In this document: in pieces, positions 4,672-9,808 of the stretch
Numbering within the stretch: the stretch's first letter is position 1
Layout: the number at the start of each line of letters is the position of its first letter
The notes under the pieces: model-generated
The model's database searches: none
Seen by the model: only the letters and a program-made list of their open reading frames with translations
What the model was told of the DNA's origin: nothing
DNA from: Rubrivivax sp.
Lineage (GTDB): Bacteria > Pseudomonadota > Gammaproteobacteria > Burkholderiales > Burkholderiaceae_C
Assembly: GCA_020848515.1 (NCBI GenBank)
Contig: JADLIA010000024.1
Location: 1 to 35,327 of the forward strand
Length of the DNA: 35,327 nt
Direction: 5' to 3'
Position numbers and translations under genes: made by a program

Positions 4672-5535
4672 GTGAACCATCCCCACCTCCCACCCCCCCT
4701 GCCGCCGCGCCCGGCGCGCGGCACCCTGACCCTGCCGGCCGTGCGCACGGTCGGCCTGGACGCACCGCTGCACTGGCTGGCCCTGGGCTGGCGCGACCTG
4801 TGGCGCGTCGGCCCGCTCAGCCTGCTGTACGGCGCCCTGCTGGCCGGCTTCGGTGGGCTGCTGCTGGCGCTGGCCGCCGACCAGTTCTGGCTGCTGGCCG
4901 GGGCTTTTTCCGGCTTTCTGGTGATCGCACCGGTGCTGGCCACCGGCTGGTACGCGCTGTCGCGCGCGCTCGAGCGCGGCGAGCCGGCCAACGCCGCCAC
5001 CGTGCGCAAGACCTGGATACGCTGGCAGTACTCGCGCTACGCCGTGCATGGCGGCTACTGGAGCCTGGTGCGCTTCGGCCTGCTGCTGGCGCTGGCCGGC
5101 AGCGGCTGGGTGCTGACCTCGGCCGCGCTCATCACCGCGCTGGCGCCGCAGCCGGTGCACACGCCGCTCGACTTTCTGCGCCACGTGGTGCTGGCGCCCG
5201 GCAGCCACCTGTTCGAGCTGTGGCTGATGCTGGGCGCCCTGATGGCGGCGCCACTGTTCGCCTCCAGCGTGGTCGCCATGCCGTTGCTGCTGGACCGGCG
5301 TGCCGACGTGCTGCAGGCGGTGCTGACCAGCTGGCAGGCGGTGCTGAACAACCCCGCGCCGCTGGCCCTGTGGGCCGCGCTCATCATGCTGCTGACCCTG
5401 CTGGGCATGGCCACCGTGCTGCTCGGTCTGGTGCTGGCCCTGCCCTGGCTGGGCCATGCCAGCTGGCACGCCTACCGCGCGCTGGTCGACGCCGACAGCC
5501 TGCCCGAGCGCCTGCCGCCCGAAGGAGGCGCCTGA
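4672..5535 (+). CDS. DUF2189-family integral membrane protein
   Basis: A 287-residue inner-membrane protein of unknown function. After a proline-rich N-terminus (PPLPPRPARG) it reads VGLDAPLHWLALGWRDLWRV, then a first hydrophobic pair (about residues 55-100), RALERGEP, and three or four more hydrophobic stretches (about 140-170, 180-205, 230-260). The WLALGWRDL and GFLVIAPVLATGWYALSRALERGE patterns are what I recognise as DUF2189. The start is a GTG; no better codon is available before the conserved part. The stop overlaps the next start (TGATG), so it is co-translated with the DUF2788 gene. The last 64 bases are also read antisense by the glycosyltransferase frame. Confidence 0.8.
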   Translation: MNHPHLPPPLPPRPARGTLTLPAVRTVGLDAPLHWLALGWRDLWRVGPLSLLYGALLAGFGGLLLALAADQFWLLAGAFSGFLVIAPVLATGWYALSRALERGEPANAATVRKTWIRWQYSRYAVHGGYWSLVRFGLLLALAGSGWVLTSAALITALAPQPVHTPLDFLRHVVLAPGSHLFELWLMLGALMAAPLFASSVVAMPLLLDRRADVLQAVLTSWQAVLNNPAPLALWAALIMLLTLLGMATVLLGLVLALPWLGHASWHAYRALVDADSLPERLPPEGGA

Positions 5536-7484
5536 TGTTCGGCTTCAACGAGGAGCAGATCGCCTGGTTCGGCCTGACCTTCGGCGTCAGCGCCTTCATC
5601 CTCTACATGCTGTTCATCATCGGCCAGCTGGCGTGGGAGTCCAAAGCCGGCAAGTTCGGCACCTTCGTGCTGTTTCTGGCGCTGGCCTTCGGCATGGTCG
5701 GCTTCATCGCCAAGGGCGTGATCCAGTGGATCATCGAGAAGTGAGCGCCCTGCGGTGGCACGCAGCGTCGGGCTGCCCACGGGCGTTGACCGTTCGAGCA
5801 TGGCCTGCAGATCGGCCGGCAGGGTACGACGGTCGTACCAGCGATCTTCGGTGATGGGCGCCAGTTCGAGTTCATCACCGGCTTCGGTCAGATAGTCGTA
5901 GCCCTCGGCCTGGAACCGGCCGTCCGGATCCAGCGACTTGTACAGATCACGCCGCCGGATCCGGTCGGCTTCGTGAATCATCTTCAGGTGATACATGTGG
6001 TAGTTGAGCACCGCGTGGCGGCGCGCCTGCCGGCTCGCCTCCAGCAACGCGTCCGGCACCCATGAGCCGTGCAACTGCGCCGTGCGCTCGAAGGCGATGA
6101 CCTCCGGCACCTTCAGCAGCCGGACATCGTTCTTGCTCAACCACCGGCCATCGATGCGGTACTGGTCCGGTCGATCCCACAGTTCGCGACGCGCCAGCGT
6201 CAGCATCTGAAAACCCAGCGCGTCGAGCGCCTTGCCGAGAGGGCGCAGCCCCTTGACGAACATCATCTCGTAGCGCTCGTCGGCATCGCACACCAGCACC
6301 CATTGCGCGCCGTGACGACGCGCGGCCTGCAGCAGCCGGCGCTTGTTGTCCCGCTCGTTCCAGACATGGGGCTGGGCCGGGGGGTTGTCGAGCAGCTCCA
6401 GCAAGGCGGGTTCGCGGCTGACAATCTCCCGCGTGCCGTCGGTCGAGCCATCGTCAAGCACGATGAAACCATCCACATACCCGCGCAGATGCTCGAAGCA
6501 GCCCGGCAGAACGCGCGCTTCATTGCGGACCTGCATGACGCACAGCAGGCGCGGCGCGTCCGACACCTGGTCGTGCGGCTGCGGCACACAGCGAAGGCAG
6601 AAGGACAGCGCCTGCTGCAACTGGGTGAAACGACCACAGACCGGGCAGCGCTGGCGGGACGGCACCGGAAAGGCTGGATTGCTGACCACGGGAACAGGCA
6701 CTGTCGCGGCAACCTCGGGGCAGCCGGCAGGCTGGCTGCCGATCGGCCAGGCCAGGCGGGAAAACGACCGCCCCCAGTCCCCATCGAGGTTGGCACGCGC
6801 CGTCGCCGGGGAGCATTTCCTCAGATCCGAGGCTGCATTGAATGCCGGACTGGGGCGGCGAGGTTCGTCCGCCAGGTGCAGCAGCTTCATCTGGGGGCAA
6901 CCCAGCAGGCGCGCACCGTTCATGGCCAGGCGAACGCGCACGTTGTCGTCGTCGGCACCCCAGCCGCGAAAGCTCTCGTCGTAGCCACCGATGAGCTCCA
7001 GTTCCTGCCGCGCCAGCGCGATCGAACCGTAGAGCTTGAACGGATCGCGGGCATCGGGAGCCACCGCGTCGAAAGCGGCCGACGCCCCCAGCTGATGCAG
7101 CTGCGCGTACTGTCCGAAGCCCACACGCCCCAGCGCCACCCCGCGTGGCACCGCCCGAACCGTGCCCAGCGCCTGTGCCGGCACATCGGTCACGAACATC
7201 GATTCTGGCGAACAGACCAGCACCACCTCGTGCGACGCGTGCCTCACCCCGACGTTGATCGCCTTGCAGGGCGGTTGCCATCCATGAGGCTGGTCGTTCA
7301 CCCTCACCTGCCAGCGAATGTCGGGGTATTGGCGTATCAGGTCGAGCACACCCGATTCCGACTCGTTCTCATCCATCACCACCACCACCTCGACCCAGGG
7401 CCGGGCGAAGTACGGTCGGTTGAGCGGCAACACCCTGCGAAAGTCCGCAAGTTTCCGGAAAAACGGCAATACGATGCTGATCAT
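5472..7484 (-). CDS. Two-domain glycosyltransferase (GT2-like) with overprinted C-terminal tail
   Basis: A 670-residue predicted cytosolic or membrane-peripheral glycosyltransferase. Residues 1-210 form a GT2/galactosyltransferase-like domain (ISIVLPFFR; VVVVMDENESESG; GWGADDDNVRVRLAMNG near 174-190, typical of the Glyco_transf_7C region). A four-cysteine linker follows (Cys280-x2-Cys283, Cys296-x2-Cys299), like a zinc ribbon. Residues 311-560 form a second GT2-like domain (VMQVRNEARVLPGC; VLDDGSTDGT; CDADERYE). From about residue 581 the frame runs antisense through the whole DUF2788 gene and into DUF2189, giving a 90-residue tail unlikely to belong to the family. The natural stop seems lost. 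Base composition is visibly lower in GC than the neighbours, which points to horizontal acquisition. Acceptor and sugar are unknown. ATG 7484 is the only plausible start; its ribosome site is weak. Confidence 0.75.
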   Translation of the reverse strand: MISIVLPFFRKLADFRRVLPLNRPYFARPWVEVVVVMDENESESGVLDLIRQYPDIRWQVRVNDQPHGWQPPCKAINVGVRHASHEVVLVCSPESMFVTDVPAQALGTVRAVPRGVALGRVGFGQYAQLHQLGASAAFDAVAPDARDPFKLYGSIALARQELELIGGYDESFRGWGADDDNVRVRLAMNGARLLGCPQMKLLHLADEPRRPSPAFNAASDLRKCSPATARANLDGDWGRSFSRLAWPIGSQPAGCPEVAATVPVPVVSNPAFPVPSRQRCPVCGRFTQLQQALSFCLRCVPQPHDQVSDAPRLLCVMQVRNEARVLPGCFEHLRGYVDGFIVLDDGSTDGTREIVSREPALLELLDNPPAQPHVWNERDNKRRLLQAARRHGAQWVLVCDADERYEMMFVKGLRPLGKALDALGFQMLTLARRELWDRPDQYRIDGRWLSKNDVRLLKVPEVIAFERTAQLHGSWVPDALLEASRQARRHAVLNYHMYHLKMIHEADRIRRRDLYKSLDPDGRFQAEGYDYLTEAGDELELAPITEDRWYDRRTLPADLQAMLERSTPVGSPTLRATAGRSLLDDPLDHALGDEADHAEGQRQKQHEGAELAGFGLPRQLADDEQHVEDEGADAEGQAEPGDLLLVEAEHQAPPSGGRRSGRLSASTSAR
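5535..5744 (+). CDS. DUF2788 small membrane protein
   Basis: A 69-residue protein with two transmembrane helices (about residues 10-32 and 41-63) around a polar loop ESKAGKFGT. The pattern FGLTFGVSAFILYMLFI and AGKFGTFVLFLALAFGM fits DUF2788, a short conserved proteobacterial membrane protein of unknown function. Its ATG overlaps the stop of the DUF2189 gene by one base, and GGAGG lies just upstream. Unusually, the entire gene is covered on the opposite strand by the open 3' end of the glycosyltransferase gene. Confidence 0.82.
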   Translation: MFGFNEEQIAWFGLTFGVSAFILYMLFIIGQLAWESKAGKFGTFVLFLALAFGMVGFIAKGVIQWIIEK

Positions 7485-7584
7485 GCCCCTGCCAGGGTCA
7501 TCCCAAAAGGAAAAGAGGGTTGGCCAAGTGCTTTCCTGGCCCGACGTGCAAAGATGAGCCAGCATCACACAGGATCGACTGGAG

Positions 7585-7804
7585 CAAGTCTGTGGATGTT
7601 TCTTGTAAAACCATCTGTTTATCCACAGGCGGCGACGACCCTGACCGCTTGTACCCACGGCCGCACCACGGCCGCGGCCGCTTGTGCACAGCCGCGCAGG
7701 CGCTGCAAGTGCGCACCAGGACTGGGGAAACCCGCGCTGTCCACAAAACGGCAGGGCACCTACTACGACTACTACGAATTCAAAAGACTCAAGAAAAACA
7801 AACC
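7585..7804 (+). other. Candidate replication origin (DnaA boxes, DnaA-trio-like tract, A-rich tract)
   Basis: The 434-base non-coding gap 7485-7918 holds an ordered set of origin-like elements. There is a perfect DnaA box TTATCCACA at 7619-7627; ACATCCACA on the minus strand at 7591-7599 (7/9); TTGTGCACA at 7682-7690; and CTGTCCACA at 7737-7745 (7/9). Fourteen bases after the last one comes CTACTACGACTACTACGA (7760-7777), six triplets matching the DnaA-trio pattern, and then an A-rich tract at 7778-7804. This order (box, GC spacer, trios, AT-rich unwinding region) is that of bacterial basal origins. dnaA and rpmH, the usual neighbours, are absent; the gap lies between the glycosyltransferase gene and minC. 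Confidence 0.5.
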
Positions 7805-7862
7805 GGCACAACTCCGCCCCGTCGATGCCCGGCCCGGCGCCGTTCACGCCGCTGGCGACTGT

Positions 7863-7868
7863 TAAGAT
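7863..7868 (+). promoter_or_regulatory. Possible -10 element for minCDE
   Basis: TAAGAT, four of six matches to TATAAT, about 50 bases before the minC ATG. No convincing -35 hexamer at 16-18 bases. A small hairpin (TCCCGC-CT-GCGGGA) follows in the leader. Weak prediction. Confidence 0.3.
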
Positions 7869-7918
7869 CGCCCCGCTTCCCTGCGTCCCGCCTGCGGGAA
7901 CGTTTTTGACCGCCCGCC

Positions 7919-8677
7919 ATGTCCGTTGCCGTCGCCGGCCGCAGCCCCACCACCTTCGACATCAAGAGCGCCAGCCTGCCGCTGCTGACGCTGCGCCTGA
8001 AGTCGCCCGATCTGGCGCGGCTGGCCGAGGAGCTGCTGGCGCAGTACGGCGACCGGCCCGACTTCTTCGAAGACGACGCCGTGGTGCTCGATCTGTCCAC
8101 CCTGCCGGCCGAGCAGGCGGGGGCCGAGATCGACTTCCAGCAGCTGGGCGAGCTGCTGCAGGCGCGCCGTCTGCGCCTGCTGGCGGTGCGTGGCGGCAGC
8201 GCCGCGCAGCATGAGGCGGCGCGCGCCATCGGCCTGCTGCAGGCGCCCGACCTGCGGGTGGCGCAGGCGGCGGCGCCCGATGCCGCGCCGGCGCGCCGTG
8301 CCGACAGCGCCGCCGTCGAGCCGCCGCCGCCCGGCGCGCTGGTGATCGAGCGGCCGCTGCGCTCGGGCCAGCAGGTGTACGCGCGCGGGCGCGACCTGGT
8401 GCTGCTGGCCATGGTCAACGCGGGGGCAGAGGTGATTGCCGACGGCCACATCCACGTCTATGCGCCGCTGCGCGGGCGCGCCATCGCCGGCGCGCGCGGC
8501 TGGGCCGAGGCGCGCGTGTTCGCGCTCGAGATGCGGCCCGACCTGGTGTCGATCGCCGGCGTCTACCGCACCGGCGACGAACCCCTGCCGCCTTCCGTGT
8601 GGGGCCAGCGCGCCAGCGTGCGCCTGGCCAGCGGCGAGGCCGGCGACAAGCTGATTTTCGAACCCGTGGCGGGCTGA
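7919..8677 (+). CDS. minC: Septum site-determining protein MinC
   Basis: A 252-residue inhibitor of FtsZ ring assembly that acts at the cell poles when recruited by MinD. The N-terminal domain (about 10-105) begins FDIKSASLPLLTLRL, and after a proline/alanine linker (about 120-140) comes the beta-helix C-terminal domain (about 143-250) with RSGQQVYARGRDLVLL, GAEVIADGHIHVYAPLRGRAIAG and RIFALEM-like AEARVFALEMRPDLVSIAG. These are textbook MinC features and the length is normal. First gene of minC-minD-minE. No clear ribosome site precedes the ATG. An origin-like region lies immediately upstream. Confidence 0.96.
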   Translation: MSVAVAGRSPTTFDIKSASLPLLTLRLKSPDLARLAEELLAQYGDRPDFFEDDAVVLDLSTLPAEQAGAEIDFQQLGELLQARRLRLLAVRGGSAAQHEAARAIGLLQAPDLRVAQAAAPDAAPARRADSAAVEPPPPGALVIERPLRSGQQVYARGRDLVLLAMVNAGAEVIADGHIHVYAPLRGRAIAGARGWAEARVFALEMRPDLVSIAGVYRTGDEPLPPSVWGQRASVRLASGEAGDKLIFEPVAG

Positions 8678-8721
8678 AGGCGCGCGGCGACGACGGTTTT
8701 CATTTTGCAAGCGAGATCGAC

Positions 8722-9537
8722 ATGGCAAGAATCGTGGTGGTGACTTCGGGCAAAGGTGGCGTGGGCAAGACCACCACCAGCGCCGCGTTCGCGTCCGGGC
8801 TGGCGCTCAAGGGGCACAAGACGGCGGTGATCGACTTCGACGTCGGCCTGCGCAACCTCGACCTCATCATGGGCTGCGAGCGGCGCGTGGTGTACGACCT
8901 CATCAACGTGATCCAGGGCGAGGCCAACCTGAACCAGGCCCTCATCAAGGACAAGCAGTGCGACAACCTGTTCGTGCTGGCCGCCAGCCAGACGCGCGAC
9001 AAGGACGCGCTGACCAAGGACGGCGTCGAGAAGGTGCTCAAGGACCTGGCGGCGATGGACTTCGACTACATCGTGTGCGACTCGCCCGCCGGCATCGAGA
9101 CCGGTGCGCTGCTGGCCATGCACTTTGCCGACGAGGCGCTGATCGTCACCAACCCCGAGGTCTCCAGCGTGCGCGACTCCGACCGCATCCTGGGCATGCT
9201 GGGCAGCAAGACGCAGCGTGCCATCGAGGGCAAGGAGCCGGTCAAGGAGCACCTGCTGATCACGCGCTACAACCCGAACCGCGTCGCCGACGGCCAGATG
9301 CTGAGCCTGGACGACATCCAGGAGATCCTGCGCGTCAAGCTGATCGGCGTCATTCCCGAGAGCGAAGCCGTGCTGCAGGCCTCCAACCAGGGCCTGCCGG
9401 CGGTGCACCTGAAGGGCAGCGACATTGCCGGTGCCTACATGGACGTGATCGAGCGCTTTCTGGGCGCCGAGGTGCCGATGCGCTACGTCGAGGCCGAGAA
9501 ACCCGGCTTCTTCAAGCGCCTGTTCGGGGGGCGCTGA
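8722..9537 (+). CDS. minD: Septum site-determining ATPase MinD
   Basis: A 271-residue ParA/MinD-type ATPase that binds the membrane in its ATP form, recruits MinC, and is displaced by MinE. The deviant Walker A box [10 protein letters not shown] (Lys11, Lys16), the switch region [11 protein letters not shown] and Walker B-like [12 protein letters not shown] are all visible. The final residues [11 protein letters not shown] are the amphipathic membrane-targeting helix. It starts 44 bases after minC and ends four bases before minE, an obvious operon. Confidence 0.97.
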
Positions 9538-9541
9538 AGCC

Positions 9542-9808
9542 ATGTCCTTCCTGTCATTCTTTCTGGGCGAGAAAAAGAAGACCGCCAGCGTCGCCAAGGA
9601 GCGGCTGCAGATCATCCTGGCGCACGAGCGCGCCGGCCGCAGTGCCGCCGAGCCGGATTACCTGCCCGACCTGCAGCGCGACCTGATTTCGGTCATCAGC
9701 AAATACGTCAGGATCGACCCCAAGGACATCAAGGTGCACCTGGAACGCCAGGACGACCTGGAGGTGCTGGAGGTCAAGATCGAACTGCCCGAGAAAAAGC
9801 CGGACTGA
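9542..9808 (+). CDS. minE: Cell division topological specificity factor MinE
   Basis: An 88-residue protein that stimulates the MinD ATPase and drives pole-to-pole oscillation, keeping the division site at midcell. The N-terminal membrane and anti-MinCD segment reads [23 protein letters not shown].. with the contact helix [11 protein letters not shown], followed by the dimerisation domain with [17 protein letters not shown] and [11 protein letters not shown]. Normal length. Followed by a hairpin and a dispersed repeat copy. Confidence 0.96.

Follow-up and report, generated by a model that had tools for sequence, protein, structure and literature searches.

The window analysed here is the whole of contig C24 (35,327 nucleotides) of a draft Rubrivivax sp. 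genome, an assembly of 2,475,248 bases in 186 contigs that is 77% complete. Judged by minC, the closest named relatives of this organism are Ottowia-type Comamonadaceae. Within the window, an intergenic region lies between a glycosyltransferase gene on the reverse strand and the genes of the Min division system, and this region holds an ordered set of DnaA boxes, a spacer, DnaA-trios and an A-rich tract (Table 1). A sequence-only reading had described an oriC-like region in the gap between a glycosyltransferase gene and minC, and the Pfam matches of the flanking genes agree with the neighbours that it named.

Table 1. Genes and putative origin elements around the gap upstream of minC (window coordinates; offsets are counted from the trios).
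Feature	Position	Strand	Remarks
Family-2 glycosyltransferase gene, upstream neighbour	5472..7484	-	Pfam PF13704/PF00535; ATG at 7484
Intergenic region, proposed oriC, 434 bp	7485..7918	+	Holds the conserved element
Reverse DnaA box TGTGGATGT, 7/9	7591..7599	-	Offset -169
Perfect DnaA box TTATCCACA	7619..7627	+	Offset -141
Weak box TTGTACCCA, 6/9	7649..7657	+	Offset -111; several relatives have better boxes there
DnaA box TTGTGCACA, 7/9	7682..7690	+	Offset -78
Trio-proximal DnaA box CTGTCCACA, 7/9	7737..7745	+	Offset -23
14-nt spacer, last box to trios	7746..7759	+	Read from the sequence
DnaA-trios CTACTACGACTACTACGA (CTA CTA CGA CTA CTA CGA)	7760..7777	+	Lower strand 3'-GAT-5' type
A-rich tract, likely duplex-unwinding element	7778..7804	+	A/T-rich in 25 aligned copies
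minC	7919..8677	+	Pfam MinC_N and MinC_C
minD-like ORF (true start probably inside)	8599..9537	+	Pfam CbiA/ParA-type ATPase; between minC and minE
minE	9542..9808	+	Pfam MinE

The box cluster comprises one perfect and three 7/9 boxes within 155 bp, in an order that is kept in relatives. The coordinates first given for the perfect box at 7619 and for the trios at 7760-7777, 14 bases beyond the last box, proved exact. As the accompanying caution said, only one box is perfect, the remaining boxes of the gap scoring 6/9 or 7/9. For the E. coli box consensus, as for the DnaA signature, the dnaN start motif, the KOPS motif and the parS consensus, the form used here is the one which we take to be standard. 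Boxes with no more than one mismatch number five in the window, compared with a mean of 1.10 in shuffled sequences, none of which (0/100) reaches five; the other four lie far from the gap, at 18-23 kb. The 15-base trio core, with up to two mismatches allowed, has a single occurrence in the window and none in 100 shuffles.

The general design of a bacterial oriC as a DnaA-box, a spacer and DnaA-trios (the basal unwinding system, BUS) is established, and the program written to find it allows spacers of up to 16, with 13 being the commonest (PMC8287927). Set against that account, the gap offers a DnaA box, a 14-nt spacer, more than three trios of the 3'-GAT-5' type and an A/T-rich tract, and differs from it in adjoining minC and in the long fixed array at -169/-141/-111/-78/-23 that is seen in the family. 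At least three trios carry the conserved middle A on the lower strand, and a box (CTGTCCACA, 7/9) lies within 16 bp of them. Four trios are standard and two are CGA, which have no middle A on the lower strand, so that no three standard trios stand in a row. Beyond the trios the A+T content is 60% at 7781-7810 against about 30% in the window (about 70% G+C), a modest rise which supplies the A/T-rich part of the design and bears out the A-rich tract that had been described at this place.

The trio string alone was dropped as a marker of origins. It was found in 196 of 299 family genomes, and CTACTACGACTACTA corresponds to the YYDYY codons of a UvrB-like gene in the five copies read (L224, L228, L240, L220, L232), one of which was run against Pfam and matches the UvrB interaction domain; because it recurs in this manner, the string by itself proves nothing. 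An exact box-plus-trio pattern, matching 4 genomes across the 299, was set aside as too strict. Over 80 stretches of 20 kb from three genomes, a strict ordered detector returned 3 sites, each of them upstream of minC, and the ordered combination of box, spacer and trios is, unlike the bare trio string, specific.

Conservation is evident at the minC loci of relatives. A DNA match to the gap is present in 15 of 60 relatives, with most of the strong matches covering 7738-7775, and wherever the position of the matching element was placed (Ottowia and other genera), it lies upstream of minC. This comparison, which had been proposed as a check on the sequence-only reading, finds the element kept with near base-exact spacing. 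Applied to 80 minC loci of named genomes, the strict box-spacer-trio detector matches 28 and leaves 52 unmatched. At the Ottowia loci so matched the module runs in the same direction as minC; at several Hydrogenophaga loci it is reversed, and in some of them it stands 1-2 kb from minC. Two modules per locus occur in three Hydrogenophaga loci (L044, L050, L054) and in a MAG labelled Gammaproteobacteria (L053).

A sequence-only model of 66 nt, reaching from the last box to the A-rich tract, was built from 25 copies, all at minC loci except L012, the site of which was not checked. Among minC loci it matches 0 of 16 in Polaromonas and 0 of 10 in Ramlibacter; the dnaA loci that match it belong to one Polaromonas (L258), two Ramlibacter (L253, L255) and G116 (L260). 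The window's module resembles the dnaA-side origins of the family (such as Polaromonas G355, Ramlibacter G354 and G357) in being found by the same model, and a -142/-143 box is also present in G355 and G354. It differs from them in its site at minC and in a slightly different trio register.

The upstream boxes and their offsets lie outside the model. Among 30 loci chosen by the model, being those returned for its best matches rather than a random draw, a forward box of at least 8/9 stands at -141, -142 or -143 from the trios in 29, with a 7/9 box in the last, and a reverse box of at least 8/9 stands at -169 to -171 or at -181/-182 in 19, the box background being 0.0066 matches per offset over all 30 loci. 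The spacing was first noticed in a set that included nine of the 30 genomes; among the remaining 21, 20 show the -141 to -143 box. Since modules at minC, at dnaA and at other sites all share this box spacing, sequence comparison argues for one homologous element occupying different chromosomal sites.

The addresses of this element were surveyed in 80 family genomes (56 genera by code), hand-chosen with a weighting towards complete ones and one per genus. A module is present at E 0.01 or better in 66 of them, weak matches included, and no module was found in 14, the congener G005 among them, under strict filters and with a model whose training copies came from minC loci. Of the 66 best copies, 20 are no more than 2.5 kb from the dnaA domain, 19 are equally close to minC and 27 are elsewhere, the last class including G184 by virtue of a 21.9-bit match, its second match of 19.5 bits being at dnaA. 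Best copies of at least 30 bits make up 7/20 at dnaA, 15/19 at minC and 14/27 elsewhere, those below 25 bits 7/20, 2/19 and 7/27, respectively, and weak matches may be chance resemblance. Three more genomes (G012, G064, G348) have a copy at or near minC. At minC the module is oriented opposite to the gene in 3 of 19 genomes. Some of the copies classed as elsewhere have as neighbours genes for a Gate-domain protein and DUF3297, PagL, EAL and RdgC, and further ones a dicarboxylate symporter gene or an endonuclease-family gene.

The model gives a single match in 45 of the 66 genomes and one module in the window's own genome, as far as its 77% complete assembly extends; two or more modules within about 30 kb of one contig are found in 19/66, and 16 of these 19 fall in the elsewhere class. 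In G031, G032, G171, G240, G311 and G012 two or three modules stand 0.3-30 kb apart, and in G209 two modules of opposite orientation lie about 440 bp apart beside dnaA. A third shared address, flanked by a Gate-domain nucleoside-recognition gene on one side and a DUF3297 gene on the other, recurs in G032, G123, G305 and G332 (loci L320, L330, L333 and L337, identified by Pfam in L320 and by like sequence in the others).

The genome's own dnaA lies on a different contig from minC, and the linkage of oriC to dnaA is not seen here; in Ottowia (G003, G011, G014, G023) the two genes are 78-300 kb apart. On the own dnaA contig neither the detector nor the model finds a trio element, and the dnaA-dnaN gap measures 118 bp and has no box of at least 8/9. 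A search of the dnaA locus and of other box clusters had likewise been suggested at the outset, and it yields an own dnaA with two perfect boxes upstream of it and no module. These two boxes face each other in the dnaA-rpmH gap (L002:4000-4058, G000:C113), with 41 bp between them, and perhaps serve dnaA control.

In the family, the dnaA-dnaN gap differs with the address of the module. The dnaA-type genomes (n = 8 measured) have gaps of 231-411 bp with one to three boxes of at least 8/9, as expected by class. Gaps are 118-156 bp in the minC-type genomes (n = 10 measured), nine of which have no such box, and 58-305 bp, with a box in one, in the module-less genomes (n = 5 measured). Here and in the DnaA tree, the minC label covers G012 and G064 (best copies 4.4 and 2.6 kb away) as well as G349 and G352 (labelled from their minC loci without a model search of their genomes), and the label of none covers G348 despite three matches on three contigs. 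The elsewhere genomes (n = 9 measured) have gaps of 62-253 bp and no box of at least 8/9; 11 of the 43 dnaA loci were left unmeasured because dnaN was not recognised. Where the module is away from dnaA, the gap is about half as long and mostly box-free. The dnaA-dnaN gap is likely the ancestral site of the module. On a DnaA gene tree of the 43 genomes the site labels are clustered (15 changes, compared with 23.4 in shuffles, none of 200 giving so low a count). The tree does not fix the number of moves, its well-supported branches forcing only one change for the minC label.

Chromosome-wide marks were considered in relatives. In G335, a single-contig genome of another genus, the cumulative GC skew over 1760-1860 kb (500-bp steps) has its minimum at 1,809,000, no more than 0.5 kb from the minC module, the trios of which are at 1,808,556; dnaA, at 1,774,773, is 34 kb off, and the skew is negative between dnaA and the module. 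Sampled windows of this genome are negative between 600 and 1800 kb and positive from 1810 kb through to 200 kb, apart from a single slight exception on either side. In Ottowia G011, G014 and G023 the skew is weak, shallow near the modules and does not single out minC: the minima of contiguous stretches fall at 818, 179 and 180 kb with modules at 673, 139 and 86 kb, and those of sparse genome-wide samples at about 3770, 4300 and 660 kb, of which that in G014 is about 20 kb from dnaA and about 160 kb from the module. The polarity of KOPS-like GGGNAGGG suggests a flip near 160-180 kb in G014 and has the wrong direction just left of the module in G011. For placing the origin in these three genomes, GC skew, third-codon skew and KOPS-like polarity were rejected as too weak or inconsistent. 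In the window itself the skew is -0.058 to the left and +0.006 to the right of 7760, which is small but compatible with an origin. The skew comparison put forward with the sequence-only reading is thus clean in G335 and indecisive in Ottowia, where G014 has its sampled minimum near dnaA. That reading had also named a skew minimum and a dense box cluster next to dnaA, together with a tract not conserved in relatives, as evidence against itself; the tract is conserved.

Exact parS matches occur in 14 of 15 genomes searched, and in all nine where parS, module and dnaA share a contig (G003, G011, G014, G023, G335, G351, G031, G032, G035) parS is nearer to the module than to dnaA, the distances being 4-44 kb to the nearest module and 37-324 kb to dnaA. 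G035 keeps its module and parS together, although minC is 1.78 Mb away. The window's own draft genome, 77% complete, has no exact parS match. In the module-less congener G005, parS is separated from minC by 18 kb and from dnaA by 515 kb. Malikia (G348:C49) has seven parS sites within 17 kb, the other 13 parS-bearing genomes having two or three.

From the sequence features described above, we consider the gap upstream of minC to be probably (at a probability of about 0.86) the functional oriC of this organism, an Ottowia-like bacterium of the Comamonadaceae group, and to have moved there from the dnaA-dnaN gap. Among the three readings offered at the start, a true origin that has moved, a duplicate or a relic, the first is the best supported, by the conserved spacing, the one own module and the absence of a module at the own dnaA. 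Against it, an assembly that is 77% complete and split into 186 contigs could hide another origin. At such an origin DnaA would load on the R/F box pair at -169/-141 and spread across the weaker -111 and -78 boxes as far as the one at -23. DnaA-ATP would then pass over the 14-nt spacer onto the single-stranded DnaA-trios (lower strand 3'-GAT-5' type), and the A-rich tract at 7778-7804 would melt and admit the helicase. We infer DnaA binding, unwinding and firing, as well as the direction of the move and the carrying over of the behaviour of G335 to the window's organism.

The boxes could instead belong to a DnaA-regulated promoter which times minCDE expression and has no origin function. In general, genes often have DnaA boxes upstream, and 19 of the 66 module-bearing genomes have their best copy within 2.5 kb of minC, as a promoter would suggest. 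The same layout, however, is found at sites that have no minC (Gate/DUF3297, PagL, EAL, RdgC) and beside dnaA, it has trios and an A/T-rich tract as well, it runs against the direction of minC in 3/19, and in G335 the skew flips at the module, all of which render this explanation very unlikely. A duplicate or relic origin, with the active one at dnaA or in unassembled sequence, would be in keeping with the 19/66 genomes that hold two or more modules within about 30 kb, with the 77% completeness of the own genome, with the two perfect boxes upstream of its dnaA and with the sampled skew minimum of G014, which is nearer dnaA. A decaying relic would not be expected to keep its spacing almost base for base, however, and the own dnaA has neither a module nor more than a short, box-free gap towards dnaN, so that this alternative is judged slightly less probable still.

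A resemblance due to chance, or to a coding stretch such as the one for YYDYY in UvrB, can draw on the 196/299 genomes with the trio string and on the five copies of the UvrB-like gene, but is already contradicted by the ordered array, by a trio core that appears in 0/100 shuffles, and by conservation in relatives together with the independent -141 box; its probability is negligible. The relocated origin itself may form part of a wider pattern, which we propose tentatively and at somewhat less than even odds. The oriC of the Comamonadaceae group would be a moving cassette, a module of about 220 bp in which the DnaA-box spacing is fixed and which has been copied out of the dnaA-dnaN gap to several other places, minC among them; some lineages would keep two or three modules side by side until one disappears.

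That oriC can lie away from dnaA is already established (PMC2275245, PMC6323995, PMC2864759, PMC10225481). In these sources, oriC lies at dnaA and near the skew switch in 342 of 568 chromosomes (PMC2275245), the skew switch of Cupriavidus metallidurans CHR1 is some 90 kb away from dnaA and has three perfect boxes (PMC2864759), and Synechococcus lividus PCC 6715 has an origin away from dnaA (PMC6323995). The present oriC resembles those of CHR1 and PCC 6715, as they are described there, in being unlinked from dnaA, and differs in its site at minC and in that one module can be traced over several alternative sites within a family. Among the literature matches listed for an origin at minC or for Comamonadaceae origins, a scope outside of which lie subscription papers and the DoriC tables, there is no report of such an origin.

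What the gap seems to house is thus an oriC of ordinary mechanism whose address is unusual, and within this family the origin seems to have moved. Genomes are often numbered from dnaA with the origin assumed to be there, and in much of this family that assumption may be wrong by tens to hundreds of kb. A module that keeps its internal spacing at changing sites provides natural replicates with which to ask what parts of oriC matter and how origins relocate without killing the cell. An oriC placed before minCDE raises the question of whether initiation is coupled to division; if the moving-cassette reading is true, the minC site would link the Min division system directly to initiation, to the dosage of genes near the origin and to DnaA occupancy.
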